Of a DNA stretch of 33,632 nt, positions 10,050-20,700 are shown one piece after another. Both the position numbers and the translations under genes were made by a program. The DNA is taken from the NCBI GenBank assembly GCA_022710775.1, contig JAKLGH010000011.1, positions 1 to 33,632 on the forward strand, in the 5' to 3' direction. The notes under the pieces are model-generated. The model did not search any database. It saw nothing but the letters and a program-made list of their open reading frames with translations, and had not been told where the DNA came from. Positions within the stretch are counted from its first letter, which is position 1, and every line of letters begins with the position of its first letter. This DNA is from Patescibacteria group bacterium (GTDB lineage: Bacteria > Patescibacteriota > Minisyncoccia > Minisyncoccales > UBA5738).

Positions 10050-11726
10050 CTATTCGTTTCCGCTTATAACTTTGCCTTTCTCTTCGGACATATTCTGATC
10101 GGAAAGGGATACGGTGTCAAGGGCCGCGGTTTCAGCCTCCAAAACCATATCCGTCCAATTGTCATCCCCGGAAATCCTGGCTTCCCCCATAAGCTGGACG
10201 CTTTTGGCGACATCATCCCTGGTCGGAGTGATCGATACCTGGAACGATACGTTTTCCGGCGCCGTGATCACGCCCTGCCCCGTCTTGAGGTCGCCGATAT
10301 TCCAGGTCAGCTTGCCTGATTCCTGGTCATAGACTAATTTTCCGGCCTGCTGTTCGGGAAAAATTTGTCCGGTGAATTTAACGTTTTTGGGCATCATGGC
10401 CGTAGCCACGACGTTCTTCACGTCGGAATAATAATTCTTTGCCTGCCAGGTAATGGTATAGGTTGTAGTCTCTGAAACGGCCGGCGGAATCGGCCCGGTA
10501 TTCCCGAAGATCTCATCCATATAATAAACCTTCTGGACCAATTCCAGCTTGGAACTGATCTTGGTCGTGAAATACTGGGTCGCCTGGCCGACCATAACCC
10601 GATTCGATAACGAAGGTTTCTTGATCTGGCTGAGATCGTCTTTAAGTTTTATCCAAAATTCGGCCTTGCCTTCTTCCATTGGAGCAAGGTATTGCAGTTT
10701 TGAATTCTTCCGCCAGTCAAAGATAATCGAATTGTCTCCTTGCTCAAAACTTCCCGTTTCGGATTTGATGGCGTTGAAATCGAAGAGGTCGCCATCCAGT
10801 TTGTTGATCATATACAGGTTGTATCGGTCTTCTCCGGAAATATTCTGGAAAAAGATCTCATAATGCAGCCAATCTCCGGGTTTTGCCACATATTTCGGAT
10901 TGCCGTTGATTTCCTGGCGGATCGAAACCGAAGGCTTTTGGATCTCAACGCCTTTTTCTATCTCTTTGAGCAAAGTGAATTCCCCGTCCTTCCAAACACC
11001 GAGCTTGGCGCGAAAAACCTTCGCATCTCCGATATTCCCGGAAAGCCGCCCGGTCACGTCGATGCTTCCCGCCTCGTTTTTGTTTAAAACCGGGATATCC
11101 CACTCCGTTTTGTCCAACGACTTCGGCAATGATTCAACAAATTCAAAACCCGACGGATACTCGACTTGGGCGCGCAAATCGGTCAGAAGCCAAGGTATAT
11201 TGGAAGAATAGTTCAGCTTGAAGTTGAAATTCTTATCGGCCTCCAGTTTTGAAGGAAGGTCGAATTCAAAAGTAAGCGGAACCGATTTGATCACGGTAGT
11301 AAAGCTTGTGGTCGATTCATAAGTAACCTTCAGGTTTTTCGGCTGGTAATTCAAAGTTGCCTTGGCGATCTTGGGATCGCCTTCCTTCCCGATAAGCTTC
11401 ATTTTAAAAGAAAACGTTCTTTCCTCGCCCGGATAGATCGCCCCGCCCAGCTTATCGCTGGTTAAAATCTCTTTTTGGTAGATTTTGTCGTCTTTTACGG
11501 AAAAAGCGGGCGGCTCGAACAGCAAGGTCGGATTTTCCAGACGGAAATCGCCGTTGTTCTTATATTTAACGACGTACTCGGTCTCTTCTCCCAGGGAAAT
11601 TTCCTGGGGACCAATGATCTCCAGCTTTAAAACTTCTTTGGAATAAACGTTCCGCTGAAACAAAACATATCCCACAACGGTCAGGATCAAAACAGCGAAA
11701 AGCAAAACTTTGATTAATTTGCTCAT
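10050..11726 (-). CDS. membrane-anchored surface protein with DUF11-like repeats
   Basis: A 558-residue protein with one N-terminal helix (LIKVLLFAVLILTVVGYVLF) and a long extracytoplasmic part made of beta-sandwich repeats. Recurrent features are 'GEETEYVVKYKNNGDFRLENPTL', 'KPGDWLHYEIFFQNIS' and 'VSETTTYTITWQAKNYYSDV', matching the DUF11/S-layer-associated repeat family, in which each repeat has the pattern G-D-x-x-Y-x-I-x-x-x-N. It probably acts as a cell-surface adhesin or wall component. Its ATG overlaps the TGA of recO by 4 nt (ATGA), so it is translationally coupled to a repair gene of unrelated function. Confidence 0.8.
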   Translation of the reverse strand: MSKLIKVLLFAVLILTVVGYVLFQRNVYSKEVLKLEIIGPQEISLGEETEYVVKYKNNGDFRLENPTLLFEPPAFSVKDDKIYQKEILTSDKLGGAIYPGEERTFSFKMKLIGKEGDPKIAKATLNYQPKNLKVTYESTTSFTTVIKSVPLTFEFDLPSKLEADKNFNFKLNYSSNIPWLLTDLRAQVEYPSGFEFVESLPKSLDKTEWDIPVLNKNEAGSIDVTGRLSGNIGDAKVFRAKLGVWKDGEFTLLKEIEKGVEIQKPSVSIRQEINGNPKYVAKPGDWLHYEIFFQNISGEDRYNLYMINKLDGDLFDFNAIKSETGSFEQGDNSIIFDWRKNSKLQYLAPMEEGKAEFWIKLKDDLSQIKKPSLSNRVMVGQATQYFTTKISSKLELVQKVYYMDEIFGNTGPIPPAVSETTTYTITWQAKNYYSDVKNVVATAMMPKNVKFTGQIFPEQQAGKLVYDQESGKLTWNIGDLKTGQGVITAPENVSFQVSITPTRDDVAKSVQLMGEARISGDDNWTDMVLEAETAALDTVSLSDQNMSEEKGKVISGNE

Positions 11727-12458: not shown

Positions 12459-13271
12459 TTAGTATATTTTTTTCTGCTTTTCGCCGATCATTCCGCGCAA
12501 AACATTGGTTGCCCGGGTTCTGCCCATCCGCCCCGTACCCAGCGATTTAGGCGGCTTTATCTGGCCTTTTTCGATTCCGCGAATCGTTTTTTGGACATCT
12601 TCTTTCCTGACAAAATTCCGATCCGGAAAAAATTCCTGCGCCAGCCCCGACCGGTCTTTCCGGCCAAGCTTGGTCATTTGTTTCAGATTGTCGTTTTTCC
12701 ACAAGGAATATTTCAAATCGTCTTTTTTGACAAAATCCTTTGTCCCGAAAACGGTTTTTGGGATCTCAATTTTTTTTCCGGCTTCGATCTGTTTTTTTTG
12801 GGGCAAACCCGCCGTCTTCTCCGGAGTTTTCGACAAAGCGGCTTTTATCTTCTCTTTCGCTTTAGCTTTTTCCTGCGATACATCCTGTTCCGACGGCTGG
12901 ATTTTCTCCTTCTTTTTTTCCTTAAACTCCGGCGCGTCGAAAACGTCCGTTTCGCCTTGCGATCCTTTTGGCCGGGTCAGGCGGGAAAAAATACTTTGCC
13001 TGACTTCCGTTTTGGGCGGAATGGATGGGGAAACATTCGCCGTGCCTGAAGAGCTGTTTGGCTGGCCGGAAGCCGTATTGGGAGACGCAAACGGATCACC
13101 GGGCGCGGGCGCTCCGGGAACAGAGCCCGGGGCGCCGGGTACAGCTTCAAGGCCCGGGCGGGCATCGATATTCTGTTGGCCGTGGCGGACAGGCTCGTTC
13201 GCCTTCTCCAATTTCTGGACATCAGCCGGCTTATCTCCCGACAGGTTGCGATTATCAGCGATCGGACACAT
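12459..13271 (-). CDS. disordered Pro-rich/Lys-rich hypothetical protein
   Basis: A 270-residue low-complexity protein with no recognised domain. The first third is rich in Pro, Gly, Ala and Ser (GAPGSVPGAPAPGDPFASP), the middle third is highly charged and Lys-rich, and the C-terminal third has a more structured basic segment, with two copies of a phrase: FGTKDFVKKDDLKYSLW and FPDRNFVRKEDVQKTIRGI. The basic C-terminus could bind nucleic acid, but nothing proves it. No signal peptide. The gene sits 9 nt downstream of the antiporter gene and 25 nt upstream of recO, in one minus-strand unit. Confidence 0.7.
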   Translation of the reverse strand: MCPIADNRNLSGDKPADVQKLEKANEPVRHGQQNIDARPGLEAVPGAPGSVPGAPAPGDPFASPNTASGQPNSSSGTANVSPSIPPKTEVRQSIFSRLTRPKGSQGETDVFDAPEFKEKKKEKIQPSEQDVSQEKAKAKEKIKAALSKTPEKTAGLPQKKQIEAGKKIEIPKTVFGTKDFVKKDDLKYSLWKNDNLKQMTKLGRKDRSGLAQEFFPDRNFVRKEDVQKTIRGIEKGQIKPPKSLGTGRMGRTRATNVLRGMIGEKQKKIY

Positions 13272-13280
13272 AAAGAATAG

Positions 13281-14306
13281 TTAAAATAAATCAAAGACTT
13301 TAACAATAAACAGAAAATAAACAAGCAAATACATTATCCCTTCCCAATAGTGGATCCTTCTCGATATGCCAGAAATGATCAGCAAAGCCGCCGAAGCCAT
13401 TAAAAAAGGCAGGCCGACAGCGTAAGTAACCGTATCCAGAATGACTTTCCCGAACATGGAACTTGCTCCCAAAACCAAAGAAAGGTTGATAATGCTTGAA
13501 CCAAAAACATTTCCAAGCGCCATACTTCCCATCCTTCTGGCAGCCGCGTTTACCGCAACCAGAAGTTCCGGTAAAGCCGTTCCGATTGCCAGCATCGTCA
13601 TAGCCAAAATTGATCCATCCGCGTTTAAAAGATCGGAAACATTCACCAGCGAATCGATAGTCAGTTTCGCTCCGATTGCCAAACCCGCAAAACCGAAAAC
13701 GAGCTGTAAAAAAGCCTTCAGGGAAAATTCTGATTCGTTTTTTGCGGCCAGGCTCTTTTCGATCCGGCCGGGCAGAATTTCAACCAGTTTGGCTTCATCT
13801 TTTCCGCTCAAAAGATCGGGGGTCAGCAAGCTGTCCGATGTAAGCTCATCATCCTTTCCGGCCCCCATGACATAAAAAATGCAAACAAGAAATCCGGCCA
13901 AAAGAATTATTCCTTCCAGCGCGTTTATCGCCTGGTCGCGGGCCATAAAATAAAATAAGACCAAACTGATCGCAAATAAGGAAGCGTCGAGGTCAAGCAA
14001 TCTTTTCCGGACCGAAAGCATTTTTGCCGATATTACGCTCGCTCCAACCACCAGCAGGATCCCGGCTATAGTGGATCCGATTGCCAGCGCCGCGGCCAGC
14101 TCCCCCCGGCCGCGCAAAACCGCGGCGATCGAGGCGGACAATTCCGGAAGCGATGTGCCAAGCGACACAACGGTCAGTCCCATGATAAAAGCCGGAATCT
14201 TCAGATTGGCAGCCAGCTTTATCGCAGAACCGGTCAAAAGATCGGCCGATTTAACCAAAAGCAGCAAGGCTGCCGCAAAAACCAATGACCAGAAGAATAA
14301 AAGCAT
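13281..14306 (-). CDS. calcium/sodium antiporter (CaCA family, YrbG-like)
   Basis: A 341-residue membrane protein with about ten helices in two homologous halves. The alpha-repeats are visible: GTSLPELSASIAAVLRGRGE at about residues 51-70 followed by ALAIGSTIAGILLV, and GTALPELLVAVNAAARRMGS near 245 followed by ALGNVFGSSIINLSLV. The conserved acidic residue of each GTxLPEL segment, needed for cation transport in this family, is kept. The first repeat has GST in place of the usual GSN, a mild departure. It probably exchanges Na+ or H+ for Ca2+. First gene of the unit that continues with the disordered protein, recO and the surface protein. Confidence 0.92.
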   Translation of the reverse strand: MLLFFWSLVFAAALLLLVKSADLLTGSAIKLAANLKIPAFIMGLTVVSLGTSLPELSASIAAVLRGRGELAAALAIGSTIAGILLVVGASVISAKMLSVRKRLLDLDASLFAISLVLFYFMARDQAINALEGIILLAGFLVCIFYVMGAGKDDELTSDSLLTPDLLSGKDEAKLVEILPGRIEKSLAAKNESEFSLKAFLQLVFGFAGLAIGAKLTIDSLVNVSDLLNADGSILAMTMLAIGTALPELLVAVNAAARRMGSMALGNVFGSSIINLSLVLGASSMFGKVILDTVTYAVGLPFLMASAALLIISGISRRIHYWEGIMYLLVYFLFIVKVFDLF

Positions 14307-14460: not shown

Positions 14461-17400
14461 CTAAATTTTTTTGATTGCCAGCGACACTTCGCCAAGCTCG
14501 GTTTTGAATTTATCCGCTACCGCGCTTTTGGGAGGATTTTTGAAATCAAGGCTTTTGGCTTTGGTTTCCGATATAATTTGTTTCTGGTTTTTTTGAATCA
14601 GCTTTTTAAGCTCATCAGTTGTTTTAACGTAAATGTTAATGGCGTCTCTTGGGGTGTAACGGGCGGTTTTGCGGGCATCCTGTATATGCCGCAAAATTTC
14701 CCGAACCGTTCCCTCTTCCTTTAATTCCGGCGTAAGCGCGTAATCGAATTCCATCTCGCCTTCTTTAACCGGCTCAAAAACCACGGCTTTCACGTTCAGC
14801 TCTTCGGAAAGCAGCGCGCACAGCTCTTTGCTCAAGGGCTTCTTGTCATTGATCGTGATCTTGTTCAGCGGCTGCCGGATCTTTACGGCGTGTTTGGCCC
14901 GATCAGCCAAAGCTAAAGTTACTATTTTGCGCGCTTTTTCCATATCAACGCCTAAACCGGAATCCAGCAAATTTTTGGGAAAAACCGGCCAAAGTTCCAG
15001 ATGCACCGACTTCTGATTTTTGTAATTGTTATTGCTCAATTTTTGGTAGATATCCTCGCTTAAGAAAGGAACGAAAGGAGCTATAATCTTAGAAAATTCC
15101 ATTAATACGTAAGCGAACACGGATGAAGCCTGCTTAAGCTCGGCGGCATTCCTGGGTTGCTGAAGGCGGCGGCGCGAACGGCGGACATACCAGAGCGACA
15201 GGTCGTTTATCGCAAAATTTTCGAGCAACCGGGCCGCGGCAGTAATGTCGTATGCATCCAAAAGCTTCTTGGCTTCTTGGGCGGTTCCGGCCAGCCGCGA
15301 CACGATCCAGCGGTCAAGCACGTTTTTTGGCGCCACGCTTTTAGGCGCCTTGATCCCGGGAGCGTAGGTCTCAAGGAATACCAGGCAGTTAAAGACGGTC
15401 AGAATGAATTTCTTCATCGCCTGGTCAATATCTTTTTCGGCGAACAGTTTATACTCGCCCGGATTGTTGACAGTATAAAAATACCAGCGGATGGCATCGG
15501 CGCTGTATTTTTCGGCTAACAGCCAGAAATCAACGATATTGCCTTTCGATTTGGACATCTTCTCTCCTTTTTCATCAAGGACGTGTCCCAGCGAAACAAC
15601 GTTCTTGTAAGGCGCGCCGAAACCCATCATGGTTGAGATTGCCAGCAAGGTGTAAAACCAGCCGCGCGTCTGATCGATCGCCTCGGAGATAAAATCGGCC
15701 GGGAAAAGTTTCGGCCAAGCAAGCTTGGCGCCGCGCGGTTGGCCGGCGTCGGTTTCTCCAAAGGGCCAGCCGGCCTGGGCAAACGGCATCGCCCCGGAAT
15801 CGAACCATACATCCAAAACATCGGGAATCTTCTTGGCCGTACCGCCGCACTTGGGACATTTAAACTCCACTCCGTCCACGTATGGCCGGTGAAGATCGAT
15901 CTCCATGTTTTCGTTGAAGGGCAGTTTCTTGAATTCAACTTCGCGCCACTCGCCGGTTTTGATCTTGGTTTTGGGTTTTAAATATCTTCTTTGGGCGATC
16001 TCCTTAACGTCCTCGCCGTTTAAGGTTCCCTCAAGAACGGTAAGCGGAATTTCGTGGGAAACGATAACGATATTCTGGTCGCGGTATTTCGCGTCGATGG
16101 AGCTGATAAGATCATACATCCTTTTTTTAACGGCATTGAAGCTCTCGCCTTTGGGCAAAACCGTTTCCAAAGGTTTTTCATGCTTGTTCAGATAATCCCA
16201 CGCAAGCTTCGGATATTTCCCGTTAAAAATGCCGACGTTGAAATCCCTTAGCCGCTTGTCATAGACGACCTTGGCTCCGCTTGCCTCCGAGATGATACGG
16301 GCCGTTTGCTTTGTCCGCTCAAGATCGGAAGAAATGATCAGATCAATCCTTGCCTTGCAAAGCCTGCCGGCGCTCTTTTTAACTTCATTCCGGCCGGCCT
16401 CCGTCAGCGAAAGCAGTTTCTTCTCGGGCCAGCAACTGGATATTTTTTTTATTTGCCTTTCGGAATCTCCATGCCGGAAAAGAAAATAACGGTTACTCGA
16501 GTATTTGTAAGAAACCAGATCGCCAACCGAGCCAACCACCGAATTCCGATTGCAGTTAACGCACTGCCAGATCGGCAGCGGCGTTCCCCAGTAACGCTCG
16601 CGGGAAATCGCCCAATCCTTGGCTTCCTTAAGCCATTCCCCGAACCGGCCTTCTTTAATATGGGCCGGGATCCAGTTGATCGATTTGTTATTAGCGGCAA
16701 GATCCGAACGCAATCTCGACATTTCGATGAACCAGCTTTTTTTTGCGTAATAGATCAGCGGCGTTTTGCAGCGCCAGCAGAAAGGATAATCGTGTTCGTA
16801 GGGCTCAACCTTGAAAAGCAGGCCGCGGCCTTTAAGATCTTCGATGATCAGCGGATCAGCGGCTTTCACGAACAAGCCGGCCCATTGCTTGACATCAAGG
16901 CTAAACTTCCCGTCCTCGTTGACGGTCATGATAACCGGAAATTCCGGTTCGCCCTTTTGCTTTAAGACCTTGTTTTGTTCTTTAATGGCGTTCATATCGT
17001 CCTCGCCGAAAGCCGGCGCAATATGAACCAGGCCGGAACCGTCGCTAAGCGATACGAAATCCGCCAGGATTACTTTATAAGCGGCCTGGTCCGCCTCCTT
17101 GGAAAATTCAAAGATCGGCTGGTAACGCAGATCCGCCAGGTCTTTGCCGGTAAATTCGGAAATTACTTCAATTTCCGATTCGGGGCCAAGAACACTCAAA
17201 CGCTCTTTGGCCAAAACCAAAACTTCGCCGCTCTGCCTCTTCAGCCTCGCTTTTACGTATTGAGATTTCCCGTTCACGGCCACCGCCACGTTACCGGGCA
17301 GCGTCCAGGGAGTTGTGGTCCAGACAAGTAATGAACAATTTTTGTGCTCGGGATTAAGAATCCGGAATTTTACAAAGATCGAAGGATCCTTTACCAGCTT

Positions 17401-17976
17401 GTAGCCTTGAGCCACCTCATGGCTGGATAAAGGCGTTCCGCAGCGCGGACAGTAAGGCACAACCTTATAATCCTGGAAAAGCAGCTTCTTCTCCCAGGCC
17501 GTTTTCAAAAGGAACCAGACCGACTCCATATAACGGCGGTCGTAGGTAATGTAAGGATCGGACATATCCACCCAAAAACCGACGCGTTCGGTGAGCGCCT
17601 CAAAATCCTTTTTAAATTCCCAAACCGATTCCTTGCATTTCTTGTTAAACTCGGCTATTCCGTATTTTTCAATATCTTTTTTTTGCGTAAACCCCAATTT
17701 TTTCTCGATCTGAAGCTCTACGGGCAGACCGTGCGTGTCCCATCCGGCGCGGCGGATTACCTTAAATCCGTTCATGGTTTTGTACCGGCAAATGACGTCT
17801 TTGTAGATCCGGGCGAGAACGTGATGAAAACCGGGCTTGGCGTTAGCCGTCGGCGGTCCTTCAAAAAAAACAAAGTCCTTGGCGCGCGGGCGTAAAGTTA
17901 CCGATTTTTGAAAAATCGCGTTTCGGTTCCAAAAAGCTATCGTATCTTTTTCTTTTTGATTAAAATTGCTTTCCAT
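14461..17976 (-). CDS. ileS: isoleucyl-tRNA synthetase with an inserted histidine-phosphatase domain
   Basis: Charges tRNA-Ile and edits Val-tRNA. It is the archaeal/eukaryote-like type: HIGH-type motif FHHVL (residues 50-54), CP1 editing domain with TTTPWTLPGN (220-229), KMSKS at 807-811, and an anticodon-binding C-terminal region. At 1171 residues it is about 200 longer than expected. The surplus, about 490-690, is a complete histidine-phosphatase domain: R501-H502-G503 with the FLFRHG lead-in, SSDLERTKQTA with R554, acidic D578, and H641 in VIVSHEIP. The insert falls between C472-x2-C475 and C707-x2-C710, which flank a short loop in ordinary IleRS. Reading frame is continuous, with synthetase motifs intact on both sides. 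It is downstream of argS; the ATG follows a possible 59-codon ORF that overlaps it. Confidence 0.95.
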   Translation of the reverse strand: MESNFNQKEKDTIAFWNRNAIFQKSVTLRPRAKDFVFFEGPPTANAKPGFHHVLARIYKDVICRYKTMNGFKVIRRAGWDTHGLPVELQIEKKLGFTQKKDIEKYGIAEFNKKCKESVWEFKKDFEALTERVGFWVDMSDPYITYDRRYMESVWFLLKTAWEKKLLFQDYKVVPYCPRCGTPLSSHEVAQGYKLVKDPSIFVKFRILNPEHKNCSLLVWTTTPWTLPGNVAVAVNGKSQYVKARLKRQSGEVLVLAKERLSVLGPESEIEVISEFTGKDLADLRYQPIFEFSKEADQAAYKVILADFVSLSDGSGLVHIAPAFGEDDMNAIKEQNKVLKQKGEPEFPVIMTVNEDGKFSLDVKQWAGLFVKAADPLIIEDLKGRGLLFKVEPYEHDYPFCWRCKTPLIYYAKKSWFIEMSRLRSDLAANNKSINWIPAHIKEGRFGEWLKEAKDWAISRERYWGTPLPIWQCVNCNRNSVVGSVGDLVSYKYSSNRYFLFRHGDSERQIKKISSCWPEKKLLSLTEAGRNEVKKSAGRLCKARIDLIISSDLERTKQTARIISEASGAKVVYDKRLRDFNVGIFNGKYPKLAWDYLNKHEKPLETVLPKGESFNAVKKRMYDLISSIDAKYRDQNIVIVSHEIPLTVLEGTLNGEDVKEIAQRRYLKPKTKIKTGEWREVEFKKLPFNENMEIDLHRPYVDGVEFKCPKCGGTAKKIPDVLDVWFDSGAMPFAQAGWPFGETDAGQPRGAKLAWPKLFPADFISEAIDQTRGWFYTLLAISTMMGFGAPYKNVVSLGHVLDEKGEKMSKSKGNIVDFWLLAEKYSADAIRWYFYTVNNPGEYKLFAEKDIDQAMKKFILTVFNCLVFLETYAPGIKAPKSVAPKNVLDRWIVSRLAGTAQEAKKLLDAYDITAAARLLENFAINDLSLWYVRRSRRRLQQPRNAAELKQASSVFAYVLMEFSKIIAPFVPFLSEDIYQKLSNNNYKNQKSVHLELWPVFPKNLLDSGLGVDMEKARKIVTLALADRAKHAVKIRQPLNKITINDKKPLSKELCALLSEELNVKAVVFEPVKEGEMEFDYALTPELKEEGTVREILRHIQDARKTARYTPRDAINIYVKTTDELKKLIQKNQKQIISETKAKSLDFKNPPKSAVADKFKTELGEVSLAIKKI

Positions 17977-18139
17977 GGATTAAAGCTGAAATTATAAGCG
18001 GACGTCTTGGTACCGGCATCGCAACCGGCTTTGCGGCTAAATTCCATTCGCCGCTTTTTTTATAAACAGGCCGGCTGGAACCGAATACCAAAAGGGATAT
18101 GCTCCCAACGGCGGGCAGCTTAGGCAGCGGAACGGTCAC
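17960..18139 (-). CDS. possible 59-residue ORF linking argS and ileS
   Basis: A GTG at 18139 overlaps the TGA of argS (GTGA), and the frame runs through the whole 159-nt gap to a TAA overlapping the first codons of ileS. The product begins VTVPLPKLPAVGSISLLVFG and contains YKKSGEWNLAAKP; it ends in a Pro/Arg-containing segment. It matches no family I know. Tight overlap at both ends suggests translational coupling, but an open frame of 60 codons could arise by chance in a region with few stops. A non-coding leader for ileS is the alternative. Confidence 0.3.
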   Translation of the reverse strand: MTVPLPKLPAVGSISLLVFGSSRPVYKKSGEWNLAAKPVAMPVPRRPLIISALIHGKQF

Positions 18140-19743
18140 ATTTTTTCCGGAGCGCTTATACCCATCAAATCGAAAGTATTCTTCAAGACTATCTTGGTCG
18201 CCATCACCAGCTGCAATCTGGCAGCCGTAAGTTTCTTGTCTTCGGTTATTACGCGGCAATCGCAGTAAAATTTATGGAAGCTCGTCGCCAAATCCTGCGA
18301 ATACTGGAACAGCCGCTGCACCTGATAATCGGCGGCCGTGTCTTCGACTACTTCCTGCAAGCGCAAAAGTTCTTTGATAAGTTCTATTTCGCTTGAAAAA
18401 ACCAAAAGCCCCGTCGCGGAGCTTGCCGCCGGTTTTACAGCTTTGCTTTTCGCCAAAATGCTCGAAATGCGGGCATAAGCGTATTGCACGTAGAATACCG
18501 GGCTTTTTTCGCTTTTTTCTTTGGCCAGCTCCACATCGAATTCCATTTGCGCGTTAAGCGATTTGACCAAGTAGAAAAACCGAGCCGCGTCCAACCCGAC
18601 TTCGTCGACAAGAGATTCCAAAGTAATGATATTGCCCTCCCTTTTTGACATTTTCCCGCCCTTGAGCCGGACGATCTGCGAGATTAAAACTTCATATTCC
18701 CCTTTATAGCCCAAGATTTTCATTACGGCGTTCATCCGCGGAATATGCCCCTGATGGTCGGCGCCCCAGATATCGATGATCTTTTTGTATCCCCGCTCGA
18801 TCTTATAGCGGTGGTAAGCGATATCGGAAAGAAAGTAGGTCGGACTTCCGTTCTTGCGCAACAGCACCTCGTCTTTCTGCCCGGCATCCGACAGCTTCAG
18901 CCAGTAAGCGTCGTCTTTTTCGAAAACCAGTTTCTGTTTTTTTAAGATGTCATAGGTGCTGATGACCCAGCTTTGCTTGTATAGGTCTTCTTCCGATATC
19001 CAATAGTCGAATTTGATGTCCAATTTTTTTTCGACAAATTTCTTCAGGTCTTTTAACACCGCCTGGGACAGATAATAACCGGCCTCGGTCTCGGAGACCA
19101 TCTTCGACAAACCAGGTTTAAGCTTTTCGATCGTTTCTTTTAAATACGGGGTAAGATAACTCTCCCCGTGTCCTAACGCCGTTTTGCCAAGTTCCTGTAT
19201 CTGTTTGGAAACTTTGGCATCGTTGATGTAAAATTCCTTGTCGGTTTTGTATCCGGCCTTGGTCAGGATCCGGGCCAGAACATCGCCGTAAAAAGCTCCC
19301 CGGCCGTTGCCTACATGCATCTGGCCGGAAGGATTGGAAGAAATGAATTCAACTTGGGTTTTCAGATTTTTACCGATATTGATCGCGCCGAATTTATCTT
19401 TTTCTTTCAGGATCCGGGAAACTTCTTTCTGGAAATAATTCTTAGAAACCCGGAAATTGATAAAACCCGGCCCGGCCACCTCGATCTTCTCGAAAAGCTT
19501 TTTTGACGGGCCGTCCTCGATCCTGGCCTTGATCAGATCCGCCAAATCTTTCGGATTCTTCTTGGTTGCTTGGGCAATCTGCATCGCGATGTTGGAAGCA
19601 TAGTCCCCATGATCCCGGTCTTTCGAGAATTCCACCGCTGCCGCGCCACTGGTCAAGCTAAAACCTTCAATGGAGATGGACTTGTCTTTGGCCAGCGATC
19701 GGACCGCTTCGCATACCGCTTCTTTTATTTCTTGACGAATCAT
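18136..19743 (-). CDS. argS: arginyl-tRNA synthetase
   Basis: Charges tRNA-Arg; class I. The 535-residue protein has the N-terminal Add-1 domain that recognises the tRNA elbow (VEFSKDRDHGDYASNIAMQI), the HIGH-type motif HVGN at residues 143-146 in SSNPSGQMHVGNGRGA, and a KMSKR loop in GGKMSKREGN. The C-terminal DALR anticodon-binding domain is complete, ending in LMGISAPEKM. Slightly shorter than the usual 550-580 residues. Divergent from smpB across a 112-nt intergenic region. No Shine-Dalgarno at the ATG. Followed by ileS, with a terminator only after ileS, so the two synthetases are probably cotranscribed. Confidence 0.96.
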   Translation of the reverse strand: MIRQEIKEAVCEAVRSLAKDKSISIEGFSLTSGAAAVEFSKDRDHGDYASNIAMQIAQATKKNPKDLADLIKARIEDGPSKKLFEKIEVAGPGFINFRVSKNYFQKEVSRILKEKDKFGAINIGKNLKTQVEFISSNPSGQMHVGNGRGAFYGDVLARILTKAGYKTDKEFYINDAKVSKQIQELGKTALGHGESYLTPYLKETIEKLKPGLSKMVSETEAGYYLSQAVLKDLKKFVEKKLDIKFDYWISEEDLYKQSWVISTYDILKKQKLVFEKDDAYWLKLSDAGQKDEVLLRKNGSPTYFLSDIAYHRYKIERGYKKIIDIWGADHQGHIPRMNAVMKILGYKGEYEVLISQIVRLKGGKMSKREGNIITLESLVDEVGLDAARFFYLVKSLNAQMEFDVELAKEKSEKSPVFYVQYAYARISSILAKSKAVKPAASSATGLLVFSSEIELIKELLRLQEVVEDTAADYQVQRLFQYSQDLATSFHKFYCDCRVITEDKKLTAARLQLVMATKIVLKNTFDLMGISAPEKM

Positions 19744-20323: not shown

Positions 20324-20684
20324 GGGGATGCAAGGTTTCGATGGATTACGACCTGAAACAGGCAAGCCAAGTTGCTGTATCTTGTAAAAATCAGCGAACC
20401 AATAAGTGTCAACAACTTATTTGAACAACCCGCTTTGGCCTACGCCTAACCGCTAATCCAACGCGTATCCGGATTGCCGAATCTCTCTTAAGCTTTCCGG
20501 GTATAATCAATGGGAGACTAGGCTGCCAGCTAAAACCCTGGCTGGACAGCCGAAATCAAGGGGATAGGTTTATAAGAATTTTGTCCGTTTTTTATCTTAT
20601 GGACCCATACAAATCGGACTAAGCTTGTATCACCTTTTTCAGCCGCTCGTTTTCCAGATACGGGTTCGAGTCCCGTCTTCTCCA
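20324..20684 (+). ncRNA. ssrA: transfer-messenger RNA
   Basis: Rescues stalled ribosomes with SmpB. The 5' end GGGGATG pairs with CTTCTCC at 20677-20683 to form the acceptor stem, including the G3-U70 wobble that alanyl-tRNA synthetase requires; one U-U mismatch is present. The conserved GGTTTCGAT follows the 5' arm, and the T arm is ACGGGTTCGAGTCCCGT (20660-20676). The tag frame most likely begins at GTC 20408 and encodes VNNLFEQPALAYA, ending at TAA 20447-20449. The 3' CCA is not encoded: the discriminator A at 20684 is followed by CAC, so CCA would be added after processing. Pseudoknots could not be verified by eye. Confidence 0.93.
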
Positions 20685-20700
20685 CACGAATATTTTTTTA

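Follow-up and report, generated by a model that had tools for sequence, protein, structure and literature searches.

The isoleucyl-tRNA synthetase (IleRS) encoded by ileS of a Patescibacteria group bacterium (JAKLGH010000011.1) contains an insert that, judged from its sequence, constitutes a complete branch-1 histidine-phosphatase (HP) domain whose catalytic set is invariant. We consider it probable, at roughly 0.6, that the insert is catalytically competent and that such domains are a recurrent partner of the branched-chain aminoacyl-tRNA synthetases in Patescibacteria. Few enzymes have been studied as thoroughly as the aminoacyl-tRNA synthetases, and, to our knowledge, it is rare for one of them to have a second complete enzyme inserted in its core. 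HP domains in IleRS and ValRS are widespread in this large bacterial group, appear to have been gained repeatedly at different sites, and are encoded by an adjacent gene when unfused. The pattern of fused, free and recaptured domains, which is of a kind that usually reflects a real biochemical link, points to an unrecognised connection of a phosphatase with IleRS and ValRS. If the link holds, there would be an undescribed phosphate-bearing step or hazard in the charging of isoleucine and valine; if it fails, the pattern would be a remarkable example of essential proteins repeatedly capturing and releasing a domain. We found no published description of an HP-IleRS fusion in the open-access literature, where absence is no proof of novelty.

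The gene was identified in a stretch of DNA of 33,632 nucleotides (the window), where it forms a single, unbroken reading frame of 1171 codons. The gene and its synthetase signatures are as follows.

14461-17976, minus strand: ileS, type-2 IleRS with inserted HP domain, 1171 aa (Pfam, NCBIfam)
17821-17832, minus strand: GFHH, residues 49-52, the non-canonical GxHH form of HIGH
15547-15561, minus strand: KMSKS signature, residues 806-810 (K806, S808 and K809 invariant in alignment A2)

The product scored 875 bits against the NCBIfam isoleucyl-tRNA synthetase profile TIGR00392 (cut-off 621), and Pfam detected the tRNA-synt_1, Anticodon_1 and DUF5915 domains together with an internal His_Phos_1 domain. 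Structure prediction of the full protein, proposed as a check in the initial annotation of this DNA, gave a confident AlphaFold model for all 1171 residues (pLDDT 89.6, pTM 0.82), the closest solved fold being that of Priestia megaterium IleRS2 (32% identity). That annotation had described the synthetase motifs as intact, which is true of KMSKS but not of the HIGH element, where positions 1 and 3 are swapped with respect to the canonical HxGH. The GxHH form has been described in some IleRS2, in which it confers mupirocin hyper-resistance (PMC10485003). With GFHH allowed in IleRS2 and KMSKS intact, the protein bears both of the signatures expected of an IleRS. Among the proteins examined, GxHH was present in 62/86 fused and 20/37 unfused IleRS.

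The insert, its predicted catalytic residues and the cysteine pairs that flank it are located at the following positions.

16552-16563, minus strand: C472-x2-C475, first Cys pair, before the insert (Cys in 44/47 and 40/47, alignment A2)
15907-16509, minus strand: inserted HP domain, residues ~490-690, Pfam core (PF00300) 498-677
16468-16476, minus strand: R501-H502-G503, RHG motif, with His502 the predicted phosphate acceptor
16315-16317, minus strand: R554, predicted phosphate-pocket Arg, invariant
16243-16245, minus strand: D578, predicted general acid/base, always Asp or Glu
16054-16056, minus strand: H641, predicted phosphate-pocket His, invariant
15847-15858, minus strand: C707-x2-C710, second Cys pair, after the insert (Cys in 44/47 and 43/47, alignment A2)

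The initial annotation had proposed a complete HP domain within IleRS and had named a profile search of the insert as a check. The search returned His_Phos_1 (PF00300) at residues 498-677, far above the cut-off (E 8.2e-30; 104-109 bits against 21.7), and a search of the organism's own genome placed the domain at 15940-16485 (E 1.3e-31). Modelled alone with AlphaFold (AF2), the domain reached a pLDDT of 93.4 and a pTM of 0.90, and the nearest solved folds were HP enzymes, including PspA, CobC, GpgP and PhoE. R501, H502, G503, R554, D578 and H641 all occupy the positions originally assigned to them. The proposed insertion at a metal site also stands: the domain lies in the zinc-knuckle loop of IleRS, flanked by C472/C475 and C707/C710, where unfused relatives have only a linker of ~10 residues between the Cys pairs.

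The catalytic set of HP enzymes consists of the RHG His, an Arg, a Glu and a second His (PMC3866925). The insert shows everything by which a branch-1 HP is recognised, namely the profile match, an RHG with the nucleophilic His, a second Arg, an acidic residue and a C-terminal His. Conservation of these residues in homologues, another check named at the outset, was strict: R501, H502, R554 and H641 are invariant in 89/89 distinct fused homologues, and residue 578 is Asp in 14 and Glu in 75 of them. In the free homologues described below, R501 and H502 are invariant in 34 and H641 in 35 (one copy is cut short), and residue 578 is Asp in 19 and Glu in 16. The catalytic set is intact in 34/34 complete free copies, as it is in 26/26 HP domains carried by the IleRS of other groups and in 7/8 of those of ValRS. 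Within residues 490-690 of alignment A2, nine residues are invariant, four of them catalytic. The invariance of the catalytic residues in homologues leads us to reject a decayed or inactive HP domain.

No substrate can be transferred to the insert from a named HP family because all of the NCBIfam equivalog cut-offs were missed. The best NCBIfam profile was that of the archaeal 2,3-BPG-dependent phosphoglycerate mutase, dPGM (NF038349), at 81 bits against a cut-off of 225, and the second dPGM profile (TIGR01258) gave 22 against 82 bits. The alpha-ribazole phosphatase CobC (TIGR03162) scored 74 against 163 bits, and the phosphoserine phosphatase PspA (NF045917) scored 63 against 350 bits, though PspA is the best PDB sequence match. 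PspA (4ij5/4ij6), CobC (6e4b, 6nru), PhoE (1h2e) and GpgP (4pz9) have the same fold and the full catalytic set, but unlike the insert they are free-standing enzymes, with 21-25% identity to it. Among the better profiles (76 bits) was PRK07238, a bifunctional RNase H/acid phosphatase in which an HP is likewise joined to a nucleic-acid enzyme, there as a terminal fusion to RNase H rather than as an insertion inside a synthetase.

The host enzyme can also be compared with known synthetases. Type-2 IleRS (P. megaterium IleRS2 and the relatives of MupA/MupB) have the catalytic, editing and anticodon domains in common with the window IleRS, and some IleRS2 also have the GxHH signature (PMC10485003); unlike the window IleRS, the solved IleRS2 structures among the matches listed are without a phosphatase domain. 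The profile ileS_w_GNAT (NF040702) likewise describes an IleRS with an extra enzyme domain, but that domain is an N-acetyltransferase, not an HP; the window IleRS scored 288 bits against its cut-off of 1999, and Pfam detected no GNAT domain in the protein. The CP1 editing domains of IleRS, ValRS and LeuRS are, like the HP, enzyme domains inserted in class Ia synthetases, and they are the known example of coupled insertion (for the LeuRS editing domain, PMC13114784). In contrast to the HP, the CP1 domains are universal in these synthetases, occupy a single site and act on misacylated tRNA; the HP insert has a different fold, belongs to part of one lineage here and is found at several sites.

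The gene order around ileS is conserved in relatives, where smpB/infC/rplT diverge from argS-[HP]-ileS-recO-DUF11 protein-glyS. The neighbours in the window are listed below.

10050-11726: DUF11-domain protein, also at L038-L056
11723-12433, minus strand: recO (PF02565), downstream syntenic anchor
12459-13271, minus strand: 270-aa protein between recO and ileS, no Pfam match
13281-14306, minus strand: Na/Ca exchanger (PF01699) between recO and ileS
18136-19743, minus strand: argS (PF05746, PF03485), directly upstream of ileS, syntenic anchor
20324-20687, plus strand: tmRNA adjoining smpB, tag peptide VNNLFEQPALAYA

The tmRNA was the only match in an Rfam scan of the window, with no T-box or riboswitch above threshold at ileS. 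A similar-looking membrane protein is also encoded between recO and ileS in one relative (L041). The DUF11-domain protein has ~550 aa, with a hydrophobic segment at the N terminus, and its gene separates recO from glyS at nearly all loci of the order.

To describe the distribution of the domain, HP searches and gene neighbourhoods were combined for 59 related genomes, one per species. The HP was fused in 33 of these and encoded by a free gene directly upstream of ileS in 14; four had argS-HP-recO with ileS elsewhere, one (L039) had the HP elsewhere, and seven were without the HP subfamily, so that the HP is not essential everywhere. In 51/52 of the carriers in the order, then, the HP is found inside ileS or adjoining ileS/argS, and in 28/59 genomes the HP of this subfamily is the sole PF00300 protein. 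Counted across every locus, 28 free HP genes precede ileS in the same orientation, and for 25 the spacing to ileS is -26 to +70 nt. The position of the free HP beside ileS/argS could be inherited synteny instead of a functional need.

A scan of named genomes, from which the best 80 loci were taken, most of them bearing the label of a Patescibacteria lineage, extended the distribution to Nealson-, Portnoy-, Staskawicz-, Wildermuth-, Harrison-, Lipton-, Colwell-, Wolfe-, Sung-, Nomura- and Doudnabacteria and others. Together, the 59 relatives and these best 80 loci yielded the 89 distinct fused domains, and in all but one the insertion loop is the same, between '(V/I)IGSxxEL' and 'DLHRPYID'. By sequence and gene order, the HP thus occupies the same loop in the order and the class, and the same subfamily also occurs free near ileS. 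The suggestion in the initial annotation that similar architectures may exist in other Patescibacteria is borne out by these homologues, and its concern that the insert might be an assembly chimera is ruled out by their occurrence in dozens of independent, unrelated assemblies. One MAG labelled Spirochaetia (L109, QYPD01000003.1) carries a Parcubacteria-like HP-IleRS whose sequence nests among Patescibacteria; this MAG is probably mis-binned.

The HP has not stayed in one state. In the HP tree, free copies are nested in fused clades with bootstrap values of 98-100: the free L041 and L042 group with L018 and L019 (98/95), and the free L039 falls inside the window's own family (99/93). AU tests rejected a single clade of all fused HPs (p 1.5e-4) and a single clade of all free HPs (p 2.5e-5); therefore, the HP passed repeatedly between both states. 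In an IleRS tree built without the HP insert, well-supported branches require nine or more switches between the fused and unfused states, a count that by itself does not distinguish gain from loss, and 15 unfused IleRS formed a clade on a long branch. A single ancient insertion followed by vertical inheritance is ruled out by the AU tests and the IleRS tree. The simplest reading of the trees is a replacement of IleRS genes in which the HP was retained, freed in place.

HP domains also occur at other sites and in a second synthetase. In a survey of 380 genomes, all Patescibacteria, in which hosts were pre-selected by a long reading frame and 30 loci were examined closely, at least 61 genomes from many families had HP domains in very long frames. 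In IleRS of other groups, the HP was located in the metal loop, in the second half of the same knuckle, after WFxSG, or between the catalytic and anticodon domains. Several of these IleRS have two HP domains, and one of 1569 aa (L205:3176-7882) has three. Seven proteins among the survey loci are ValRS in which an HP is inserted either in the metal loop or behind WFSSG, which rules out an insertion specific to IleRS. The sequences thus place HP domains at several other IleRS positions and inside ValRS elsewhere in the phylum. In a wide HP tree, whose deep nodes are poorly supported, some HPs of other groups fell among unrelated HP clades, and several independent captures of an HP are likely. 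Two of the survey proteins contain further inserts: a ValRS of 1275 aa (L203:1833-5657) has an HAD-type hydrolase (PF13419) and an RBBP9-like serine hydrolase (PF06821) in addition to the HP, and an IleRS of 1426 aa (L211:3138-7415) has a GNAT acetyltransferase insert and an HP between the catalytic and anticodon domains.

How might such a domain serve a synthetase? We strongly infer that the inserted HP is catalytic. By analogy with its family, His502 would take the phosphoryl group, Asp578 would act as the acid/base, and Arg501, Arg554 and His641 would bind phosphate; the phospho-enzyme would then be hydrolysed, making the domain a phosphatase and not a mutase. With less assurance, we suggest that the HP may clear a small phosphate monoester that matters where or when IleRS and ValRS work, which would be a house-cleaning or protective role. 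The main benefit of the tether would be to match the amounts of the two enzymes and to keep them locally concentrated, because a free HP made from the same transcript serves as well. If the HP is coupled to isoleucine activation, as the initial annotation suggested it may be, a fixed channel joining the active site of IleRS to the HP is unlikely, since the HP is also found free, at varied sites of IleRS and in ValRS. A bolder proposal, which we put forward tentatively and would not ourselves favour at present, is that the IleRS and ValRS of Patescibacteria depend on a phosphatase of their own, in addition to activation and editing. Different loops of both enzymes would have taken up this third function on several independent occasions, and replacement of a synthetase would have left the phosphatase as a free adjacent gene. 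If this is true, branched-chain aminoacylation would involve an unrecognised phosphorylated inhibitor, by-product or modification.

Alternatively, the HP could be an active enzyme with an ordinary metabolic job unrelated to aminoacylation, housed in the permissive loop of a highly expressed protein or operon. Several different loops of IleRS and ValRS accept an HP, such loops are also occupied by a GNAT in an IleRS and by HAD and serine hydrolase domains in a ValRS, and the HP also occurs as a free gene, in L039 at a distance from ileS. However, the only HP hosts among the large frames examined were IleRS and ValRS, a result to be read in light of the pre-selection by frame length, and nearly every carrier in the order keeps the HP in or next to ileS or argS. 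We regard this explanation as rather unlikely, but it is the most serious competitor of a partnership between phosphatase and synthetase.

One could also envision a built-in protein phosphatase whose target is its own synthetase, or a partner, and which would undo the inactivating effect of a kinase. Such inactivation of class I synthetases is carried out by HipA-type kinases, some branch-1 HPs (SixA, PGAM5) act on proteins, and sharing a chain or an operon with the synthetase would fit such a role. The nearest relatives by both sequence and fold, PspA, CobC, PhoE and GpgP, are small-molecule phosphatases, however, and we consider this role improbable. Neither is the HP needed as a pyrophosphatase or a phosphoglycerate mutase, because dedicated enzymes exist. 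Hydrolysis of the pyrophosphate made by the synthetase might be suggested by the absence of the family I enzyme from the organism's own genome and from many relatives, but a pyrophosphatase of family I, of the membrane type or of the DHHA2 type (family II) is present in 57/59 genomes, with the DHHA2 type in the own genome, and HP enzymes are normally monoesterases, which together make this activity very improbable. The least probable assignment, a phosphoglycerate mutase filling a gap in glycolysis, is suggested by the archaeal dPGM profile and by the presence of enolase in 53/59 genomes with a PF06415 iPGM in only 1/19 tested, but it is already largely refuted by the score far under the dPGM cut-off, by a separate HP adjoining enolase in the own genome (C1:97587 and 98311), and by the presence in most of the other genomes of either an HP adjacent to enolase or a PF01676 enzyme of ~400 aa, which is often encoded next to enolase.
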